A DNA stretch of 64,000 nucleotides. Origin: Stigmatella ashevillena. Lineage in GTDB: Bacteria; Myxococcota; Myxococcia; Myxococcales; Myxococcaceae. Where the stretch lies: the NCBI RefSeq assembly GCF_028368975.1, contig NZ_JAQNDM010000002.1:5450425-5514424 (forward strand), in the 5' to 3' direction. The notes beneath the pieces are model-generated. The model was not told the DNA's origin and made no database searches. It was given only the letters and a program-made list of their open reading frames with translations. The position numbers and the translations under genes are program-made. Of this stretch, positions 5,772 to 31,839 are shown piece after piece; positions within the stretch are counted from its first letter, which is position 1, and each line of letters begins with the position of its first letter.

Positions 5772-7400
5772 ATGCAGGACAAGCCCTTCACCGACGTTTC
5801 CACCGCAGCCACCCCCCGGCGCGTGAGGGAAGAGTCCTCACGCCCTGTTTTCGTCCTCACCGTCGTCTCACACCCCGCCCCCCACCGCGCCGGGGAGCGG
5901 TTGGTGCTGGGGACGCTCTCCTCCGGGCACGCCGTGGCCGTGTCCCGCGTCGGCCCGGACTTCGTCCTGCCCGGCGCCACGCTCGGCATGCCCCTGGCCG
6001 ACACCTTCATCAGCCGCAAGCCGTTGCTCTTCGAGTCCGCGGGCCCGGACCGGGTGCGGCTGCGCGTGGAAGAGGGGGGCACGCAGGTGCTCGTGGGGGA
6101 TCAACCGCTGGTGGGCGCCCGCGAGTTCAGCCCCGAGGCGCTGCGCGAGGGGGTGCCGCTCGTGCTCGCCGATCGGGTCGTGCTGCTGCTGCACCAAAGC
6201 CTCTCCTTCACGCCCTCCGACGACGACGCGTTGGGCATGGTGGGCCACGGCCAGGGCACCCGCCGCGTCCGCGAAGATGTGCTCCGCGTGGCGGATCTCA
6301 AGGTGCCCGTGCTCATCCGCGGGGAGACGGGCGCTGGCAAGGAGCTGGTCGCCCGGGCCATCCACGAGCGCAGTCCCCGCCGCAAGGGTCCCTTCATCAG
6401 CGTGAACCTGGGCGCCATCCCCAAGGAGCTCGCCGCCGCCGAGCTCTTCGGCGCGAAGAAGGGCGCCTACACGGGCTCGACCCAGGAGCGCGAGGGCTTC
6501 TTCCGCGCCGCCCACCAGGGCACCCTCTTCCTGGACGAGGTGGGCGAGGCCCCCGCCGAGGTGCAGGTGATGCTGCTGCGCGCCCTGGAGACGGGAGAAG
6601 TCTACCCGGTGGGCGGCACCGCGCCCGTGGCCGTCGACACCCGGCTCATCACCGCCACGGACGCGGACCTGGAGGCGCGCATCGTCCAGGGGACCTTCAA
6701 GGCGCCGCTGCTGCACCGGCTGGCGGGCTATGACATCCAGGTGCCTCCCCTGCGCGAGCGCCGCGAGGACATCGGCGTGCTCTTCCACCACTTCGCCCGC
6801 GAGGAGCTCCAGTCGCTGGGTGAGGGCCACGGGCTGGAGTCCCTCGCCGCCCAAGGCGCCCCCTGGCTGCCGGCCTCCCTGGCGGTCCGCCTGGTGCGCT
6901 TCTCCTGGCCCGGCAATGTCCGCCAGCTGCGCAACCTGACGCGGCAGATCATCATTGGCAGCCGCGGCATGGGGGCCCTCCAGGCCACCCCCCGCATCGA
7001 ACAGGAGCTGGCCTCCGCCGGGCCTGCGCCCACCGGACGCGCCCCGGAGTTCTCCCCTCCCACGCCCGCCGCCACGCCCGCCGCCACGCCCGCCGAAGAG
7101 CCCGAGGCCGTCCGCCGCAAGCCCTCCGAGGTGAGCGACGCGGAGCTGCTGGAGGCGCTGCGCACCAGCGCGTGGGATCTCAAGGCCGCGGCTCAGCGCC
7201 TGGGCATCACCCGTCCCTCGCTCTACGTGCTCATCGACAAGAGCCCCAGCCTGCGCACCGCGGGAGACTTGAGCGTCGAGGAAATCTCCCGCTGTTTCCG
7301 AGAATGCAAGGGAGACCTGGACACCATGGCGCAGCGCCTCGAGGTCTCCAAGCGCGGGCTCCAACGCCGCGTCCGAGAGCTGGGGCTGGGTAACACCTGA
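5772..7400 (+). CDS. FHA-like sigma-54-dependent enhancer-binding protein
   Basis: A 542-residue activator of sigma-54 RNA polymerase. The N-terminal 140 residues resemble an FHA/pSer-pThr-type beta-sandwich (repeating V-strand pattern LVLGTLSSGHAVAVSR) rather than a receiver. The AAA+ domain has Walker A GETGAGKE near residue 183, sigma-54 contact loop GAYTGS near 231 instead of the usual GAFTGA, and Walker B TLFLDEVGE near 251. Two C-terminal helix-turn-helix segments follow: a Fis-like AAQRLGITRPSLYVLID near 475 and AQRLEVSKRGLQRRVREL near 523. It is followed at once by an inverted repeat and a sigma-54 promoter, so the adjacent small gene is its likely target. FHA-type activators of myxobacteria respond to Ser/Thr phosphorylation; the convergent kinase gene is a candidate partner by inference. 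Confidence 0.88.
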   Translation: MQDKPFTDVSTAATPRRVREESSRPVFVLTVVSHPAPHRAGERLVLGTLSSGHAVAVSRVGPDFVLPGATLGMPLADTFISRKPLLFESAGPDRVRLRVEEGGTQVLVGDQPLVGAREFSPEALREGVPLVLADRVVLLLHQSLSFTPSDDDALGMVGHGQGTRRVREDVLRVADLKVPVLIRGETGAGKELVARAIHERSPRRKGPFISVNLGAIPKELAAAELFGAKKGAYTGSTQEREGFFRAAHQGTLFLDEVGEAPAEVQVMLLRALETGEVYPVGGTAPVAVDTRLITATDADLEARIVQGTFKAPLLHRLAGYDIQVPPLRERREDIGVLFHHFAREELQSLGEGHGLESLAAQGAPWLPASLAVRLVRFSWPGNVRQLRNLTRQIIIGSRGMGALQATPRIEQELASAGPAPTGRAPEFSPPTPAATPAATPAEEPEAVRRKPSEVSDAELLEALRTSAWDLKAAAQRLGITRPSLYVLIDKSPSLRTAGDLSVEEISRCFRECKGDLDTMAQRLEVSKRGLQRRVRELGLGNT

Positions 7401-7402
7401 GC

Positions 7403-7453
7403 CTGTCTCACGTTACGTGTTGACACGTCCAGGAACATGTCAACATGAGACAG
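7403..7453. promoter_or_regulatory. Inverted-repeat enhancer candidate (UAS) for a sigma-54 activator
   Basis: Two nested inverted repeats begin three bases after the activator stop codon. The outer arms are CTGTCTCA (7403-7410) and TGAGACAG (7446-7453); the inner arms are TTGACACGT (7420-7428) and ACATGTCAA (7435-7443). The site ends 52 bases before the -24 element at 7505, the usual distance for an enhancer. The 14-mer TGACACGTCCAGGA at 7421-7434 recurs exactly at 31826-31839, again upstream of a sigma-54 promoter. A simple terminator for the activator gene is the main alternative, but there is no T-run. Confidence 0.6.
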
Positions 7454-7504: not shown

Positions 7505-7520
7505 TGGTACGGCGTCTGCA
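7505..7520 (+). promoter_or_regulatory. Sigma-54 (-24/-12) promoter
   Basis: The 16-mer TGGTACGGCGTCTGCA fits the TGGCACG-N4-TTGCA consensus, with GG at 7506-7507, exactly ten bases, then GC at 7518-7519. Transcription would start near 7531, leaving a 45-base leader with an AAGGAG ribosome site before the ATG at 7576. Confidence 0.65.
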
Positions 7521-7575: not shown

Positions 7576-7953
7576 ATGGCCGACTTGACCATCACCGTGA
7601 GCGACAGGGACGAGCCCGACTATTCCCCTGAAGGCAGCACGGCCCCCCATCCCACGCGCGGCCTCATCCGGCAAGGCGGCACCGTCGAGTTCAAGCTGGC
7701 CATCGGGTCAGATCCCGTCACCGTGACGTTCCCCAATGGCTCCCCGTTCGCTCTGACGGGCCCCATCCTGCTGGGCGGCATCAGCCAGCAAACCCAGCAG
7801 GACAAGACCGTTGCGTTCCAGACGGTCCCAGCGAATTACAAATACGTGGTCACCCCGCAGAATCCCCCCCCTCCACACCCCGGTAAGGATCCCGAGCCCC
7901 CCACCACGGTCTCGGGCGATCTGGAAGTCACTCCGGGATTCACGCCCGCGTGA
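7576..7953 (+). CDS. Small hypothetical protein, probable sigma-54 target
   Basis: A 125-residue acidic protein without signal peptide or membrane helix. It starts MADLTITVSDRDEPDYSPEG, has a beta-rich centre (GGTVEFKLAI, DPVTVTFPNG, YKYVVTPQ) and a Pro-rich segment NPPPPHPGKDPEPP before a last strand. The strand pattern is compatible with a small Ig- or cupredoxin-like sandwich, but no copper ligands stand out and the family is not recognised. ATG 7576 was chosen because the sigma-54 promoter at 7505-7520 and the AAGGAG at 7559-7564 both lie downstream of the earlier in-frame starts. It is therefore most likely switched on by the activator encoded just upstream. Confidence 0.7.
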   Translation: MADLTITVSDRDEPDYSPEGSTAPHPTRGLIRQGGTVEFKLAIGSDPVTVTFPNGSPFALTGPILLGGISQQTQQDKTVAFQTVPANYKYVVTPQNPPPPHPGKDPEPPTTVSGDLEVTPGFTPA

Positions 7954-7984
7954 GCCCTGCCGGGAGCCCGCGCCTCAGGGCTCC
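7952..7984. terminator. Bidirectional hairpin between convergent genes
   Basis: GAGCCCTG (7952-7959) pairs with CAGGGCTC (7976-7983), and alternatively GGAGCCC (7963-7969) pairs with GGGCTCC (7978-7984). The hairpin covers both stop codons of the convergent small gene and kinase-TPR gene. No T-run follows on either strand, so termination is inferred from position only. Confidence 0.4.
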
Positions 7985-10900
7985 TCGGCCATGCCCAGGT
8001 GGGGATTGAGGGCAAGCGCCTGCTCCAGCACCTTGCGCGCCTCGCTCCGCCAGCCTTCCCGCTGGGACACAGGTACCGGTGTCTCCGACAGCATCAGGAG
8101 CAAGCGCGCCCGCGCGGCGAGGGCCTGAGCCCAGTGGGGCCGCGCCGCCAGGGCCTCCTCGACCCGCGCCAGCCCCTCTTGCAGCACGGAAGAGGGATCC
8201 TTGCCCGTGTGCGCCAGCCATGCCGCCCAGGCGAGGTGCAGCCGCCCCAGGGCCAGGCGGTACTCGTGCCACTCGGGGTCCTTCTCGATCGCCCTCCGGA
8301 AGAAGCCCGCGGCCTGCTCGAAGTCCTCGCTCCGCGCCAGGCCTCGCTGGGCCCGCCAGCGCGCGCGGACGCCCTGCACCTCGCCCTCGTAGCGCAGCGC
8401 GAAGCCCAGCTGCGGGTTGAGCTCGAACGCCTGGTGCAGGGCCGCCTCGGCCTCATCGAGCCGCGGCCCCGGATCCCGGCCCTGCCGCAGCTCCCACAGC
8501 GCCAACGTGTGCTGCGCCTTGGCCACGTTCGCCCGGAACTGCGCCTGCCGGGGAATCCGCTCCAGGGCCTCCCGGAAGGACTCCAGGGCATTGCGGATGC
8601 TCTCGGAAGGGTCCTCGCCGCGCTGGCTCCGGTAGAGCCCCCGCCAGGCATGCACCTCGCCCAGGTTGTTGTAGGCAAAGCCCTGCTTGGGCGCCACGTC
8701 CCGGGCCTGCTCGAACGAGGCCTGGGCCACGTCCAGCAGCGCGAACGGATCCTGCCCCTCCTCCCACGCCAGCTCCGAGCGCCACAGCAGCGCGCCGCCC
8801 AAAGCGTTGTGGAACTGCGGCAGCTTCGCGTTGATGGCGAGCCCCTGGCGGTACAGCGCGATGGCCTTCTCCAGCTCCGGCGCCGCCGCGCCCCCGCGGT
8901 TGTACTGCCGCCGGGCCCGCCACTCGTGCACCTGGGCCCCGTAGTAGTAGGGCACATTGTTGCCCGCGTCGATGCCGCGCGCCCGTTCGAGCGCCTCCCG
9001 GGCCCGCTCCAAATCCGCGTCCGCGTCCACCGCCCGGGGGTGGGAGGCCCGCTTGAAGTACGCGGTCCCCAGGTTGACCCAGCCATCCACCGGCTTCGCG
9101 TCGAGCGCGATGGCCGCCTGGTACGCGGCAATCGCCTGGTCGCGGTGGGCCAGCGAGTCACTGCCCCCTTGGTCCTCGTAGTCCGCCCAGATCTTGAAGC
9201 TGTGCCCCAGTTCGATCTGAACCCCGTAGTCCCAGTTCGCCGGGGGAACGCGCTCGAAGGACTGGACCGCCTGGCGCAGTTGCTCGCCCGGATCCTCGCC
9301 GCGCTCCTGGCGGTAGCGCGCCCACAGGCGCAGGACCTGGGCCAGCTCGAGGGAGGGCTGCGACTCGCCGGGCGCCAGCACCTGGGCGGACCGCGCGGAG
9401 GCCAGGGCCTTCTCCACCAGGGGCAACACCTCGCCGCCCTGCTGCATGCGGAACTCGGCCAGCCGCCGGTGGAACTTGGACTCCAGCACCCGGGCCTTGA
9501 AGGAATCCGGCGCGGCGGTGAGCGCGTGCGCCAGCGCCTCCACGCCCCGCTCATAGTGGGGTTGCACCTCGCCCTGGCTGTAGAGCTCCAGGTGCAGGGA
9601 GGCCAGGTGCAGGGAGGCCAGGGCCGAATGCACGGCGGGCTCGCTCTCGCCAATGCGGGCCGCCTCGGAGTACGCCTGACCGGCGGACTCGATGTCGGCC
9701 AGCGCCCCGGGCCGGTCCCCTTGGTTGCGGCGCTGGAAGGCCCGCGCCTGGAAGATGTCTCCGCGCAGTTGGGGGCCCTCGTGGAACCAGGGGTAGGTGG
9801 TGCCCATGGCGTTCAGCTCGCTCAGCGCCTCCGCGTGACGCCCCTCGTAGAAGGCCATGAGCGCCGCCACGTAGTGCGGAGAGGGGGCATCGGCGCCCTC
9901 GCTCTGCCGCAGGTAGCCGAGGGCCGGATCCCGGTAGCGCTGCTCCAACGCCTGACGGCGAAGCTCGCGCTGCCCGGTGTCCCGGATGCGCTCCACTTCC
10001 AGCAGTTGCTCCTGGTAGAGCTGCCCCAGCGCGAGCGCCAGCGCATAGGCCACGCGCGCGTCGTGGTACCCCCCGCGCCAGGCGGCCTCGAGCCGGGGCA
10101 GGGCCCCCTCGGCATCCCCCAGCGCGAGCAGGGCGCGCCCCAGGGCATAGTTGCCGGGTGCCTGCGCCGGCTCGCCCCCCTGGCGGATCTCCTCTTCCAG
10201 GGCGGCCATGTCCTCCCGAAGGGCGCGGCGGTCCGGGCGCGTGTCGTGCAGCGGCGCCAGCGAAGCGTAGCGGGCCTGGGCCTCCATGCGCTCCACGCGC
10301 TCGGTGAAGCGGCGGGCGAGGCGCTCGCGCAACGCCACCTCGCGCTGGGTGAGCAGCGCCTGGGCCAGGGCGAGCAGCACGCCCAGCAGCGCCGCGGAGC
10401 CCAGCCCCACCACGAGCCGGTGCTTGCGCAGCTTCTTGCGCAGCCGGTACCCGGCCCCGGCCCTCCGTGCGCGCACGGGCTCGCCGGAGAGGAAGCGCTC
10501 CAGGTCCTCGGACAGGGCGCGCGCCGAGTCGTAGCGGGCCGTGCGGTCCTTCTCCAGACACTTGGAGACGATGGCCTCGAGGTCCACGGGGAGGCCGGGG
10601 ACGCGCTCCCGGAGCGGGCGAGGCTCCTCGGACTGGATGCGCTGGAGGAGCCCCAGCGCGTTGTCCGCTATGAAGGGCGGCACCCCCGCGAGCACCTGGT
10701 AGAGGGTGGCGCCCAGGCTGTAGACGTCCACGCGGAGATCCAACGCGCTGCCCTCACCCCGGGCCTGCTCGGGGGCCATGTAGTGGGGCGTTCCGAGCAC
10801 GTCGCCCGTGGCGGTGTGCTCCGCGTGCCAGTCACGCGCCAGGCCGAAGTCCATCACGTAGGGCTTGAGCGCCCCCTCCTCGGAGCGCTCGATGAGGATG

Positions 10901-11592
10901 TTAGAGGGCTTGAGGTCTCGGTGGATGAGACCGGCGCGGTGGGCGGCGTGGACCCCTTCGGCCACATCGCGGAGCACGCGCAGCTTCTGCTCCAGGGTGA
11001 GCTCGTGGGCGAGCTGGCCCAGGTGGCGCCCGTTCACGTACTGCATGGCGATGAAGGCGCGGCCTTGGACTTCGCCCACCTCGTACATCTCGCACACGCG
11101 CTCATGGAGCACGCGGGCCTGGGCGCGGGCCTCGGAGAGGAAGCGCTGGGCGAGCTCGGGCACGGCATCGCGCACGAACTTGAGCGCCACGTTGCGGCGC
11201 AGGCGCGGATCATACGCGAGGAACACCTGGCCCATGCCGCCTTGGCCGAGGAAGCGCACCGGCTGGTATCGGTCCCAGTGGGGCAGCGGGAAGGAGGGCT
11301 CCGAGGAGGACGGAGCAGGAACGCCCGGCTGGCGGGTGGCGGGGGCCTCGAAGGGCGAAGCGGGCGCGGGCGGAGGCGTGGGAGTGTCCTGAGGCTCGGT
11401 CCGGTTCCTCAAGGAGGAGAGGGTCTGCGGGGAGAGCTGTCCGCGCTCCAGGAGGAGTTCCAGGGGGCTGCGTTGCAGCCGGAGGGCCTCGGCGCGCAGG
11501 GCCTCCATCTCGCCCCGGGACAGAATGCCCTCGACCATCGCGAAGCGAAGCTCATCCTCGTACTCCGCTTGCCACGGGCCAGGTGGGCTCAC
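7975..11592 (-). CDS. Ser/Thr protein kinase with TPR sensor region
   Basis: A 1205-residue eukaryotic-type kinase. After about 90 residues of linker the kinase domain starts at YQPVRFLGQGGMGQVFLA (Gly loop), with ALKFV (ATP Lys), HRDLKPSN near residue 222, DFGLARDW and GTPHYMAPEQARG. A single membrane helix (VGLGSAALLGVLLALAQALL) lies near residues 393-415. The remaining roughly 790 residues are helical TPR-like repeats (for example AIALYRQGLAINAKLPQFHNALG and similar units), probably extracytoplasmic protein-protein interaction surface. All catalytic motifs are intact. The frame is open to 11724, but the GTG at 11592 (VSPPGPWQAEYEDELRF) fits the family N-terminus; only a TATATG-like element and no ribosome site precede it, so a leaderless message is possible. 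The gene converges on the small sigma-54 target gene. Confidence 0.88.
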   Translation of the reverse strand: MSPPGPWQAEYEDELRFAMVEGILSRGEMEALRAEALRLQRSPLELLLERGQLSPQTLSSLRNRTEPQDTPTPPPAPASPFEAPATRQPGVPAPSSSEPSFPLPHWDRYQPVRFLGQGGMGQVFLAYDPRLRRNVALKFVRDAVPELAQRFLSEARAQARVLHERVCEMYEVGEVQGRAFIAMQYVNGRHLGQLAHELTLEQKLRVLRDVAEGVHAAHRAGLIHRDLKPSNILIERSEEGALKPYVMDFGLARDWHAEHTATGDVLGTPHYMAPEQARGEGSALDLRVDVYSLGATLYQVLAGVPPFIADNALGLLQRIQSEEPRPLRERVPGLPVDLEAIVSKCLEKDRTARYDSARALSEDLERFLSGEPVRARRAGAGYRLRKKLRKHRLVVGLGSAALLGVLLALAQALLTQREVALRERLARRFTERVERMEAQARYASLAPLHDTRPDRRALREDMAALEEEIRQGGEPAQAPGNYALGRALLALGDAEGALPRLEAAWRGGYHDARVAYALALALGQLYQEQLLEVERIRDTGQRELRRQALEQRYRDPALGYLRQSEGADAPSPHYVAALMAFYEGRHAEALSELNAMGTTYPWFHEGPQLRGDIFQARAFQRRNQGDRPGALADIESAGQAYSEAARIGESEPAVHSALASLHLASLHLELYSQGEVQPHYERGVEALAHALTAAPDSFKARVLESKFHRRLAEFRMQQGGEVLPLVEKALASARSAQVLAPGESQPSLELAQVLRLWARYRQERGEDPGEQLRQAVQSFERVPPANWDYGVQIELGHSFKIWADYEDQGGSDSLAHRDQAIAAYQAAIALDAKPVDGWVNLGTAYFKRASHPRAVDADADLERAREALERARGIDAGNNVPYYYGAQVHEWRARRQYNRGGAAAPELEKAIALYRQGLAINAKLPQFHNALGGALLWRSELAWEEGQDPFALLDVAQASFEQARDVAPKQGFAYNNLGEVHAWRGLYRSQRGEDPSESIRNALESFREALERIPRQAQFRANVAKAQHTLALWELRQGRDPGPRLDEAEAALHQAFELNPQLGFALRYEGEVQGVRARWRAQRGLARSEDFEQAAGFFRRAIEKDPEWHEYRLALGRLHLAWAAWLAHTGKDPSSVLQEGLARVEEALAARPHWAQALAARARLLLMLSETPVPVSQREGWRSEARKVLEQALALNPHLGMAEEP

Positions 11593-12029
11593 ACGCGGAG
11601 CATATAATGATGCAGGTCCGGGCACGCTCCTTGCCGACCGCGTGGACGGGCAATGCGCTGGGCAGCAAGGCGCATGGCCAGCGCATCCAAGCCTGAGCCA
11701 TGGACCGGCGACTCTTGAGACCACCCGGAAGCCTAGAAACTGTGCTGAGGCTCTTCTGATGACGGCTCGTGGGCTGTTCGCCTCTTGCAGTTACGGTGTT
11801 TTTAGCGAAGGTTTTCCTGGAAAAAGCCCCGTGAGCGAGCAGCCAAGCAAGAGACTCTCCTAGGAAGTTCCAACTATTCCAGCAACTTAGCGCCAATCTG
11901 GCTACCCAGCCAGCAGACTACACAAACCTGCTTGCGTTTGCGTCGATTATACTTATTCTCACGTACAAGCCCGCGAGCGCATGCGTAGTCCCGCGCGTTT
12001 GGACGGCGCGTCCGGCCATGGAGAGTCCC
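11593..12029. other. Intergenic region, left edge of accessory island
   Basis: About 435 bases lie between the kinase-TPR start and the antitoxin gene. I see no convincing gene; the short open frames have atypical composition. The right half (11880-11960) is clearly AT-richer than the flanks and carries TATACT at 11948-11953, a possible -10 element for the toxin-antitoxin operon, without a good -35 at 17 bases. GGTTTTCC/GGAAAAAGCC near 11810-11830 is a weak hairpin. Confidence 0.4.
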
Positions 12030-30699: not shown

Positions 30700-31689
30700 T
30701 CACTGCTCCCCGGAAAGGGAGAGGCCACCCGCAGGGTCCCCCGGGGGTATCGCGAGGGAGCACCGCAGCAACAGGGCGTCCGTGCCACGGACCAGCAGGT
30801 CGATGCGTCCGCGGGCCGGGCTCACCGCGACGGGCCGGGAACCTGGCGTTCCCCCCAGCGGCTCCCAGGGTTGCCAGCCGCCGAGGTGCTCCTCGAACGG
30901 GAGGTGCCACAACAGGCCCCGGTCCCCTCGCGCGAAGACATCCAACCGGCCCGGCCCCCAGCTGCTCACCGTGGGGCCCGAGGTGAGCACGCCGGCCCGC
31001 GCCTGCCATTTGCCCCACCCTCCCTGGTGCGCATCGAAGGTGAGCTGCCAGAGCCCATTCTCGATGCCCCGCCCGAAGACATCGATGCGGCCCTCGCCCC
31101 AGCTCACCGCCGCAGGCTCCGAGGTGAGCAGCCCTCCCAGCGGATTCCAGGGCAGCCACCGCCGCTCGGTGGGGTCGTACTGGAGGTGCCACAAGGCATT
31201 GCCTGCCCCCCGGGCAAAGACATCCATCCGGCCCGAGGCGCTGGAGGTCACCGCCGGGCCTGAGGTGAGCGCCCCCCCCAGCGGCCTCCAGGGCAGCCAC
31301 CGCGCCCCGACCGGCTCGAACTGGCGGTGCCACAGGGTGTTGTTCGTATGGCGGACGAAGACATCCATCCGGCCATCCGGCCAGCTCACCGCCGCGGGCT
31401 CCTGGCTGAAGCCGCCCCCCAGCGTTTGCGGAGGCTGGAGCGTCCCCTTCTTTACATCCAGCACCCGGTGGACCAGCCCGTTCCGAGCAGTACGGAGAAA
31501 CACATGCAGGCGCCCCCCCGCCTTCACGCTCACGGCCGGCTCCGAGGGGGAGCTCACGTGGAGCGGCTTCCAACAGGAGGCCAAGGGCAAGAGCGGCTCT
31601 CCGGGAGCCTGACCGAACGACGCCGGAGCCACCACGCACAGCGTCAAACCCCACACCCCGGCAGCCCTTCTCAACGTCGCTTTCAACAC
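30700..31689 (-). CDS. Secreted PLL-type beta-propeller (lectin-like) protein
   Basis: A 329-residue exported protein. GTG 31689 starts VLKATLRRAAGVWGLTLCVV, a signal peptide ending near FGQA. The mature part is five to six repeats of about 48 residues with a common pattern: GRMDVFARGAGNALWHLQY, then W-x-PLGG-x-LTSGPAVTS (for example GGALTSGPAVTSSASGRMDV). This is the repeat of PLL-like fucose-binding lectins and DUF346 propellers. AGGAG lies before the GTG. A sigma-54 promoter and an inverted-repeat enhancer sharing 14 bases with the site at 7421-7434 precede it, so expression is probably controlled by the activator at 5772-7400. Sugar binding is predicted from family only. Confidence 0.8.
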   Translation of the reverse strand: MLKATLRRAAGVWGLTLCVVAPASFGQAPGEPLLPLASCWKPLHVSSPSEPAVSVKAGGRLHVFLRTARNGLVHRVLDVKKGTLQPPQTLGGGFSQEPAAVSWPDGRMDVFVRHTNNTLWHRQFEPVGARWLPWRPLGGALTSGPAVTSSASGRMDVFARGAGNALWHLQYDPTERRWLPWNPLGGLLTSEPAAVSWGEGRIDVFGRGIENGLWQLTFDAHQGGWGKWQARAGVLTSGPTVSSWGPGRLDVFARGDRGLLWHLPFEEHLGGWQPWEPLGGTPGSRPVAVSPARGRIDLLVRGTDALLLRCSLAIPPGDPAGGLSLSGEQ

Positions 31690-31728: not shown

Positions 31729-31744
31729 GGCACGAAGCACGCCA
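31729..31744 (-). promoter_or_regulatory. Sigma-54 (-24/-12) promoter of the beta-propeller gene
   Basis: Read on the minus strand the 16-mer TGGCGTGCTTCGTGCC gives GG at 31743-31742, ten bases, GC at 31731-31730. The predicted start of transcription, near 31718, leaves about 28 bases to the GTG at 31689. The upstream ATG at 31740 would lie inside the promoter, which supports the GTG start. Confidence 0.62.
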
Positions 31745-31805
31745 ACCGCTCTCCCAGGAGCTCCGAGGGGCCCCAGGGGGGCCTCGGCGGGATTCGACTG
31801 TGTTT

Positions 31806-31839
31806 GGACATGTCAGGACACCGGCTGACACGTCCAGGA
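31806..31839. promoter_or_regulatory. Inverted-repeat enhancer candidate, second copy
   Basis: GGACATGTCAG (31806-31816) and CTGACACGTCC (31825-31835) form 11-base arms with one mismatch around an 8-base spacer. The 14-mer TGACACGTCCAGGA at 31826-31839 is identical to 7421-7434. The site is about 62 bases upstream of the -24 element at 31744. Half-site order is reversed with respect to the first copy (ACATGTCA before TGACACGT). Confidence 0.6.

Follow-up and report, generated by a model that had tools for sequence, protein, structure and literature searches.

The window analysed here, a 64,000-nt stretch of the Stigmatella ashevillena genome, contains a gene for a sigma-54 activator, followed by a small gene and a convergent Ser/Thr kinase gene, and a distant gene for a PLL-type beta-propeller lectin (Table 1). 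Two exact copies of the 14-mer TGACACGTCCAGGA lie on the plus strand, at 7421-7434 and 31826-31839, and no further match with up to two mismatches was found in the window. An earlier note on this DNA had drawn attention to the string; its positions are exact, and in the whole 10.95-Mb genome it is present at these two places only (none for the reversed control). An exact common 14-mer is nevertheless unsurprising in itself, because the window contains 664 distinct 14-mers with a second copy more than 50 bp away, and 7 of 100 shuffles contained at least two matches to TGACACGTCCAGGA with up to two mismatches.

At both places the string overlaps a pair of 10-bp elements, hereafter operators, which precede a -24/-12 box. 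At site 1, past the activator gene, the operators lie 12 bp apart, about one helical turn. At site 2 the proximal operator is 20 bp from the distal one, about two turns, and the order on the minus strand is operators, box, and then the GTG of the propeller gene at 31689. According to PMC9765219, the sigma-54 consensus has GG and GC ten bases apart, in a sequence close to TGGCACG-N4-TTGC(T/A). Both boxes agree with it, TGGTACGGCGTCTGCA scoring 6.4 and TGGCGTGCTTCGTGCC 4.4 on a scale of 6.9; the latter is under our threshold for a strong box, and is conserved in 4/4 genomes. The earlier note had described, at each of the two places, a palindrome of half-sites 50-65 bases upstream of a GG-N10-GC promoter, taken to be of the sigma-54 type. 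Both pairs and both boxes were indeed found, at distances of 62 bp (site 1) and 61 bp (site 2), so that each site has the layout of an upstream activating sequence, with at least two operators at a set distance before a promoter. The genome has one sigma-54 gene, rpoN, as well as activator genes. We also observed an outer repeat, TGTCTCA/TGAGACA, around the operators of site 1 (7404-7452 of the window), with which the 3' end of the activator gene can form a long hairpin (-21.6 kcal/mol).

Table 1. Features of the window and further operator arrays of the genome (arrays in coordinates of G000:C2; single product names there combine family tallies, protein clusters and reading by eye).
Feature	Position	Strand	Remark
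Sigma-54 activator (enhancer-binding protein)	5772..7400	+	Pfam and AlphaFold model
Operator 1, site 1	7421..7430	.	TGACACGTCC
Operator 2, site 1	7433..7442	.	GAACATGTCA; two mismatches to consensus
Sigma-54 -24/-12 box, site 1	7505..7520	+	TGGTACGGCGTCTGCA, GG-N10-GC
125-aa beta-sandwich protein	7576..7953	+	predicted first target
Ser/Thr kinase with TPR repeats	7975..11724	-	convergent neighbour, candidate FHA input
PLL-type beta-propeller lectin	30700..31689	-	329 aa, GTG start
Sigma-54 -24/-12 box, site 2	31729..31744	-	TGGCGTGCTTCGTGCC, GG-N10-GC
Proximal operator, site 2	31806..31815	.	TGACATGTCC on minus strand (31815-31806)
Distal operator, site 2	31826..31835	.	GGACGTGTCA on minus strand (31835-31826)
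Array	~3809404		
Array	~5793731		phosphoesterase-like genes (predicted)
Array	~6409292		trypsin-like protease (predicted)
Array	~7613632		
Array	~8230787		amidohydrolase-like protein (predicted)
Array	~9827082		lipase-like protein (predicted)

We searched 20 genomes of five genera for pairs of TGACAYGT, in three orientations and 0-30 bp apart, and obtained 108 direct, 63 tail-to-tail and 58 head-to-head matches, counts that are not independent since the three orientation sets share elements. They collapse to 126 distinct places. The patterns read backwards gave no match in the own genome, in the 20 genomes or in 96 genomes; by this measure, the paired operators far exceed what chance would give. 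The 10-mers were 10-12, 20-22 or 31-33 bp apart in 95/108 direct, 57/63 tail-to-tail and 54/58 head-to-head pairs. The commonest class was 20-22 bp and the second 10-12 bp, while 31-33 bp was rare (9/229) and off-phase exceptions occurred, for example at 24 bp (9/229). In other genera, several relatives of the activator also have operators 32 bp apart in their 3' flanks. Of the genomes compared, G041, which belongs to the same genus group, is Hyalangium versicolor H56D21, as loci L221 and L009 agree at all 1000 bases compared.

The putative functional unit is thus the 10-bp palindromic operator TGACRYGTCA, with a wider tendency to gcTGACRYGTCAgc: GC is favoured before the operator and G after it. 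The palindrome was not built in by the search, since among 175 TGACACGT elements that the pattern fixed on one side only, 163 continue with C and 113 with CA. The earlier note had described a palindrome of TGACAYGT half-sites, their order being reversed in the second copy. Each of these half-sites is, however, a whole operator and itself palindromic, so their order is without meaning; the apparent reversal is an orientation artefact, and all three orientations occur in the 20 genomes. Nor is the weight that had been placed on the 14-mer justified. Its AGGA end at site 1 is kept in G037 and not in G036 or G038, and at site 2 in none of the three relatives; with these last four bases mostly unconserved and so many recurring 14-mers in the window, we rejected the 14-mer as the recognised unit in favour of the 10-bp operator.

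All 126 places were examined for a strong box, defined as a score of at least 5 at 20-170 bp from the array. Such a box pointing away from the array was found at 83 of them; many of the 126 places are homologous between species, so that they are not independent events. Controls in the same flanks gave 2/126 for boxes pointing towards the array, 1/126 for flanks read backwards and 1.7% for shuffled flanks; for a first control, random positions were drawn from these loci, most of them in coding DNA, and 3.1% reached a score of 5. The median distance between array and box start is 73 bp, and 80 of the 83 boxes start within 40-110 bp.

Exact and relaxed searches revealed at least eight operator arrays in this genome; because the reversed control gave one match per strand at three mismatches, single weak places at that level mean little. 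Five of the eight have a credible sigma-54 box: sites 1 and 2 with the scores given above, 3809404 (5.7, by eye), where three operators at ~21-bp steps precede the box, 8230787 (5.7) and 9827082 (6.4). No credible GG-N10-GC box was found at 5793731, 7613632 and 6409292, the last being a judgement by reading, as a box scored 4.4 sits inside the gene start and a GG-N10-GT element is closer to the array. Of the earlier proposal of a two-gene regulon tied to sigma-54 promoters, therefore, the promoter link survives a genome-wide search (5/8 arrays) and the restriction to two genes does not.

Two of the arrays without a box showed further peculiarities. The array at 5793731 (L006/L082) lies between two opposed phosphoesterase-like genes, of which the one on the minus strand seems to have lost its first part when compared with the G037 copy (L094), suggesting that the array was the site of a rearrangement. 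At 7613632-7613684 (L084), and at L092 in a second genome, three or four operators in a row precede a conserved gene, with no GG-N10-GC box on the conserved-gene side of the array.

The predicted activator consists of an FHA fold (residues ~25-145), an AAA+ domain (~155-415) and two HTH units (456-490 and 502-537), and thus combines the sigma-54 AAA+ domain and C-terminal HTH of enhancer-binding proteins. Pfam recognised Sigma54_activat (E 2.4e-57) and HTH_8 (E 9.4e-09), and residues 154-426 of the predicted model match NtrX (Z 17.1, rmsd 4.7, 250 aligned). The Pfam FHA profile was absent among the matches listed up to E 10, consistent with a divergent sequence, so the FHA label rests on the predicted fold. 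In VIA-align, residues 25-145 of the model aligned with the FHA domain of Bdellovibrio DgcB (Z 12.6, rmsd 2.0, 99 aligned) and residues 23-149 with that of ArnA (Z 12.3, rmsd 3.8, 110 aligned); no FHA chain was among the 50 Foldseek matches shown. The predicted fold thereby bears out the FHA-type activator of the earlier note. The model has a mean pLDDT of 73.9, with blocks of residues 31-140 at 84-95, and a PDB sequence search with the N terminus gave one match, to xanthine dehydrogenase (E 0.3). The two C-terminal three-helix HTH units align with each other (score 40; none of 500 shuffles scored as high, mean 18).

Operators often accompany the orthologues of the activator gene. At least one operator with up to one mismatch was found in the 3' flank of 9/12 orthologues (at least 71% identity, own gene counted) and of 2/20 paralogues, chosen from the lower-ranked matches listed in ten genomes (Fisher p 3e-4); the flanks without one belong to G032, G037 and G042. 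A similar sigma-54 box is present in 7/12 orthologous loci, own locus counted, and of 30 activator-family loci fetched, 25 had at least one operator and 22 an operator and a box. Among 96 genomes, a head-to-head pair at 20-21 bp occurs in 35/66 with an activator-family match and in 0/30 without, a co-occurrence that is confounded by kinship. Autoregulation of the activator through the operator was considered and rejected, as no operator with up to one mismatch lies in the 300 bp upstream of the gene, and 4/30 loci overall have one there.

The neighbours of the activator gene also recur. In seven neighbourhoods, chosen from 11 orthologues, a convergent Ser/Thr kinase gene (66-91% identity) adjoins the activator gene in 6/7, and the small gene was found by tblastn in 5/7, with a more distant one in G033. 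The kinase, small gene and array are all missing from G042; G032 keeps the kinase and small gene, with no operator with up to one mismatch in the flank, so the link between array and module is not strict. In G037, the nearest relative (activator 91% identical), the small gene no longer has its sigma-54 box, and there are two mismatches in each of the two operators. The box-bearing stretch before the small gene is gone from this locus (L046), the small gene itself being still open.

The small protein is modelled as a beta-sandwich (mean pLDDT 80.8). Its closest structural matches are cupredoxins (for plastocyanin, Z 8.2, rmsd 2.8, 91 aligned), a level that may reflect a common arrangement only, and Foldseek matched it to Shewanella SO1698 (E 6e-4, TM 0.51). 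A profile search of PDB sequences gave weak plastocyanin matches (best E 0.0055) and a plain PDB sequence search none; Pfam and NCBIfam gave no family beyond one chance-level NCBIfam match (E 0.19). SO1698 is titled an aspartic peptidase in the PDB. Close to its C terminus the small protein carries the string DPEP, which is missing from several orthologues.

The propeller gene encodes a protein with what reads as a signal-peptide-like N terminus. As the earlier note had recognised, it is of the PLL type: eight distinct PDB sequences, annotated as PLL, PHL, PLL2, PLL3 or Photorhabdus genome segments, match it at E 2.6e-95 to 7.9e-62, the best being Photorhabdus PLL lectins. The matches comprise two or three stretches each, the best single stretch covering 89-281 of 330 residues, and similarity extends over most of the propeller. 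The Photorhabdus PLL/PHL lectins (PDB 8q82, 5c9o, 5mxe) are thus clear sequence relatives; here, the 329-aa putative lectin gene belongs to a myxobacterium and has a predicted sigma-54 promoter. Orthologues (E 1e-40 or better) occur in 4/96 family genomes, own counted: G000, G036, G037, where the propeller is shorter (261 aa), and G038. The propeller loci retain both operators and the box GGTTGGCGTGNTTCGTGCC in 4/4 cases, while the spacers diverge; in the three relatives a single T of the proximal operator is replaced by C, and in one genome one base of the box is changed. In all four the activator and propeller arrays are 20-27 kb apart, a constancy that may reflect shared descent only.

Predicted targets were scanned at 122 of the 126 places, L159, L178, L179 and L194 being left out as doubtful reading frames; since targets were chosen by a simple GC3 rule, single ones can be wrong. 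The 122 include nine terpene synthases, nine mechanosensitive channels, five FAD-binding proteins, four amidohydrolases and three trypsins. This set is diverse, and the operator may be used by more than one activator. The idea from the first loci of the genome, that all targets are secreted hydrolases, was not upheld by the wider set. We noted arrays with strong boxes before one protein cluster at nine loci (L111, L126, L131, L138, L143, L156, L170, L172, L184), taken here as presumably the nine terpene synthases of the tally. These we take to resemble geosmin synthase, a likeness suggesting that, in several genera, an earthy-odour terpene is controlled by sigma-54. Arrays also precede genes resembling mechanosensitive channels at L103, L105, L107, L125, L129, L139, L187, L200 and L205, and similar array-preceded genes lie beside activator relatives at L065, L067 and L071.

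We consider it likely that both sites are sigma-54 upstream activating sequences made of phased TGACRYGTCA copies, with the FHA-AAA+-HTH-HTH activator of 5772-7400 as their most likely ligand. On sequence grounds, it is very likely that the arrays function as enhancers of a sigma-54 regulon. That this activator is the ligand is probable, given the gene adjacency, the conservation and the need of sigma-54 for an activator. The arrays might instead be real sigma-54 enhancers bound by a paralogous activator, or by several with overlapping specificity, the gene at 5.8 kb being one user. Two more activator relatives in this genome (58-65% identity) could share the operator, TGACGCGTC-like arrays lie beside 63-64% relatives in other genera, and the terpene synthases and mechanosensitive channels illustrate how diverse the predicted targets are across genera. 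We nonetheless regard this as unlikely, though worth some weight, because 18/20 paralogue 3' flanks are without an operator (up to one mismatch) and just one occurs in each of the remaining two, against the 9/12 of the orthologues.

The palindromes could also be read as terminators or 3' hairpins of upstream genes, as the activator gene and a histidine kinase gene both end within ~20 bp of their array, hairpins fold at both sites (-21.6 and -20 kcal/mol, z -2.2 and -2.4), and the outer repeat of site 1 would extend the stem there. However, any palindrome pair yields a hairpin, no T run follows the stem at either site, and termination would explain neither the 11- and 21-bp spacing nor the box pointing away at 83/126 places. 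We therefore think this very improbable as a general explanation; the hairpin of site 1 may double as a terminator. Least credible of all is that the common 14-mer is a functionless coincidence of a GC-rich genome. The 664 recurring 14-mers speak for it, but the reversed controls of zero and the operator pair and box in 4/4 propeller loci speak strongly against it, and coincidence fits only the trailing AGGA.

Returning to enhancer arrays read by the FHA-type activator, the operators, their phasing, boxes, spacing, conservation and module synteny are present in the sequence, and an FHA-like fold is predicted; we infer from them the identity of the binding protein, a phospho-signal, looping and the direction of effect. 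The convergent Ser/Thr kinase (7975-11724) would probably supply the phospho-threonine signal that the FHA domain is presumed to read, and the activator would bind at least two operators facing the same side of the helix. Looping of the DNA would then bring the AAA+ ring to sigma-54 RNA polymerase ~60-85 bp downstream, and sigma-54 transcription would open after this contact. The targets would be the gene for the 125-aa beta-sandwich protein, the PLL lectin gene 24 kb away, and genes at at least six further arrays, three of which have strong boxes.

More tentatively, and with somewhat less than even confidence, we propose that Hyalangium and related myxobacterial genera share a sigma-54 network that extends across the family. 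In it, a subgroup of FHA activators that have a duplicated HTH, and are linked both to a small cupredoxin-like protein and to a convergent Ser/Thr kinase, would read one 10-bp palindrome in any orientation at whole-turn spacing (mostly two or one), and control secreted or surface products that vary between species (PLL lectin, lipase, trypsin-like protease, geosmin-type terpene synthase, mechanosensitive channels).

Myxobacteria hold dozens of sigma-54 activators, and to our knowledge operators are known for only a few. Jelsbak, Givskov and Kaiser reportedly described, in 2005, M. xanthus enhancer-binding proteins with FHA, AAA+ and HTH domains and proposed a Ser/Thr kinase input for them; the activator studied here has the same layout, and we know of no operators or regulons for the M. 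xanthus proteins. The M. xanthus activator Nla28 is a two-component response regulator, and the FHA domain here stands in place of its response-regulator part. According to two papers (PMC9765219, PMC7910581), Nla28 recognises 8-bp quasi-palindromic units, CT(C/G)CG(C/G)AG, in tandem before -24/-12 promoters, with at least two and often three to five units each, and its putative targets are spread across the genome. The Nla28 regulon resembles the present case in having a myxobacterial sigma-54 activator with near-palindromic units in multiple copies upstream of -24/-12 promoters. It differs in that here the operator is TGACRYGTCA, the spacing is mostly phased to the helical turn, and there are two C-terminal HTH units.

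No earlier report of the operator, its phasing or the target set was found in the open-licence papers searched. Judging by title and the start of the abstract, the 15 listed of 38 open-licence papers containing an operator string look unrelated, as do those on geosmin and a Myxococcus enhancer-binding protein. The open-licence literature gave no paper on Hyalangium and sigma-54 or on DP-EP, and a plasmid search gave no match.

The architecture is thus that of known enhancer-binding proteins such as Nla28, and our analysis adds a candidate operator and candidate targets for one FHA subgroup. Such a short, specific and phased operator, combined with a sharp promoter distance, would allow this subgroup's targets to be predicted across many genomes from their sequence. 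It also suggests how a Ser/Thr kinase could act on a surface lectin and further secreted products, a path that can be tested, and is a clear example on which to study the role of the duplicated HTH.
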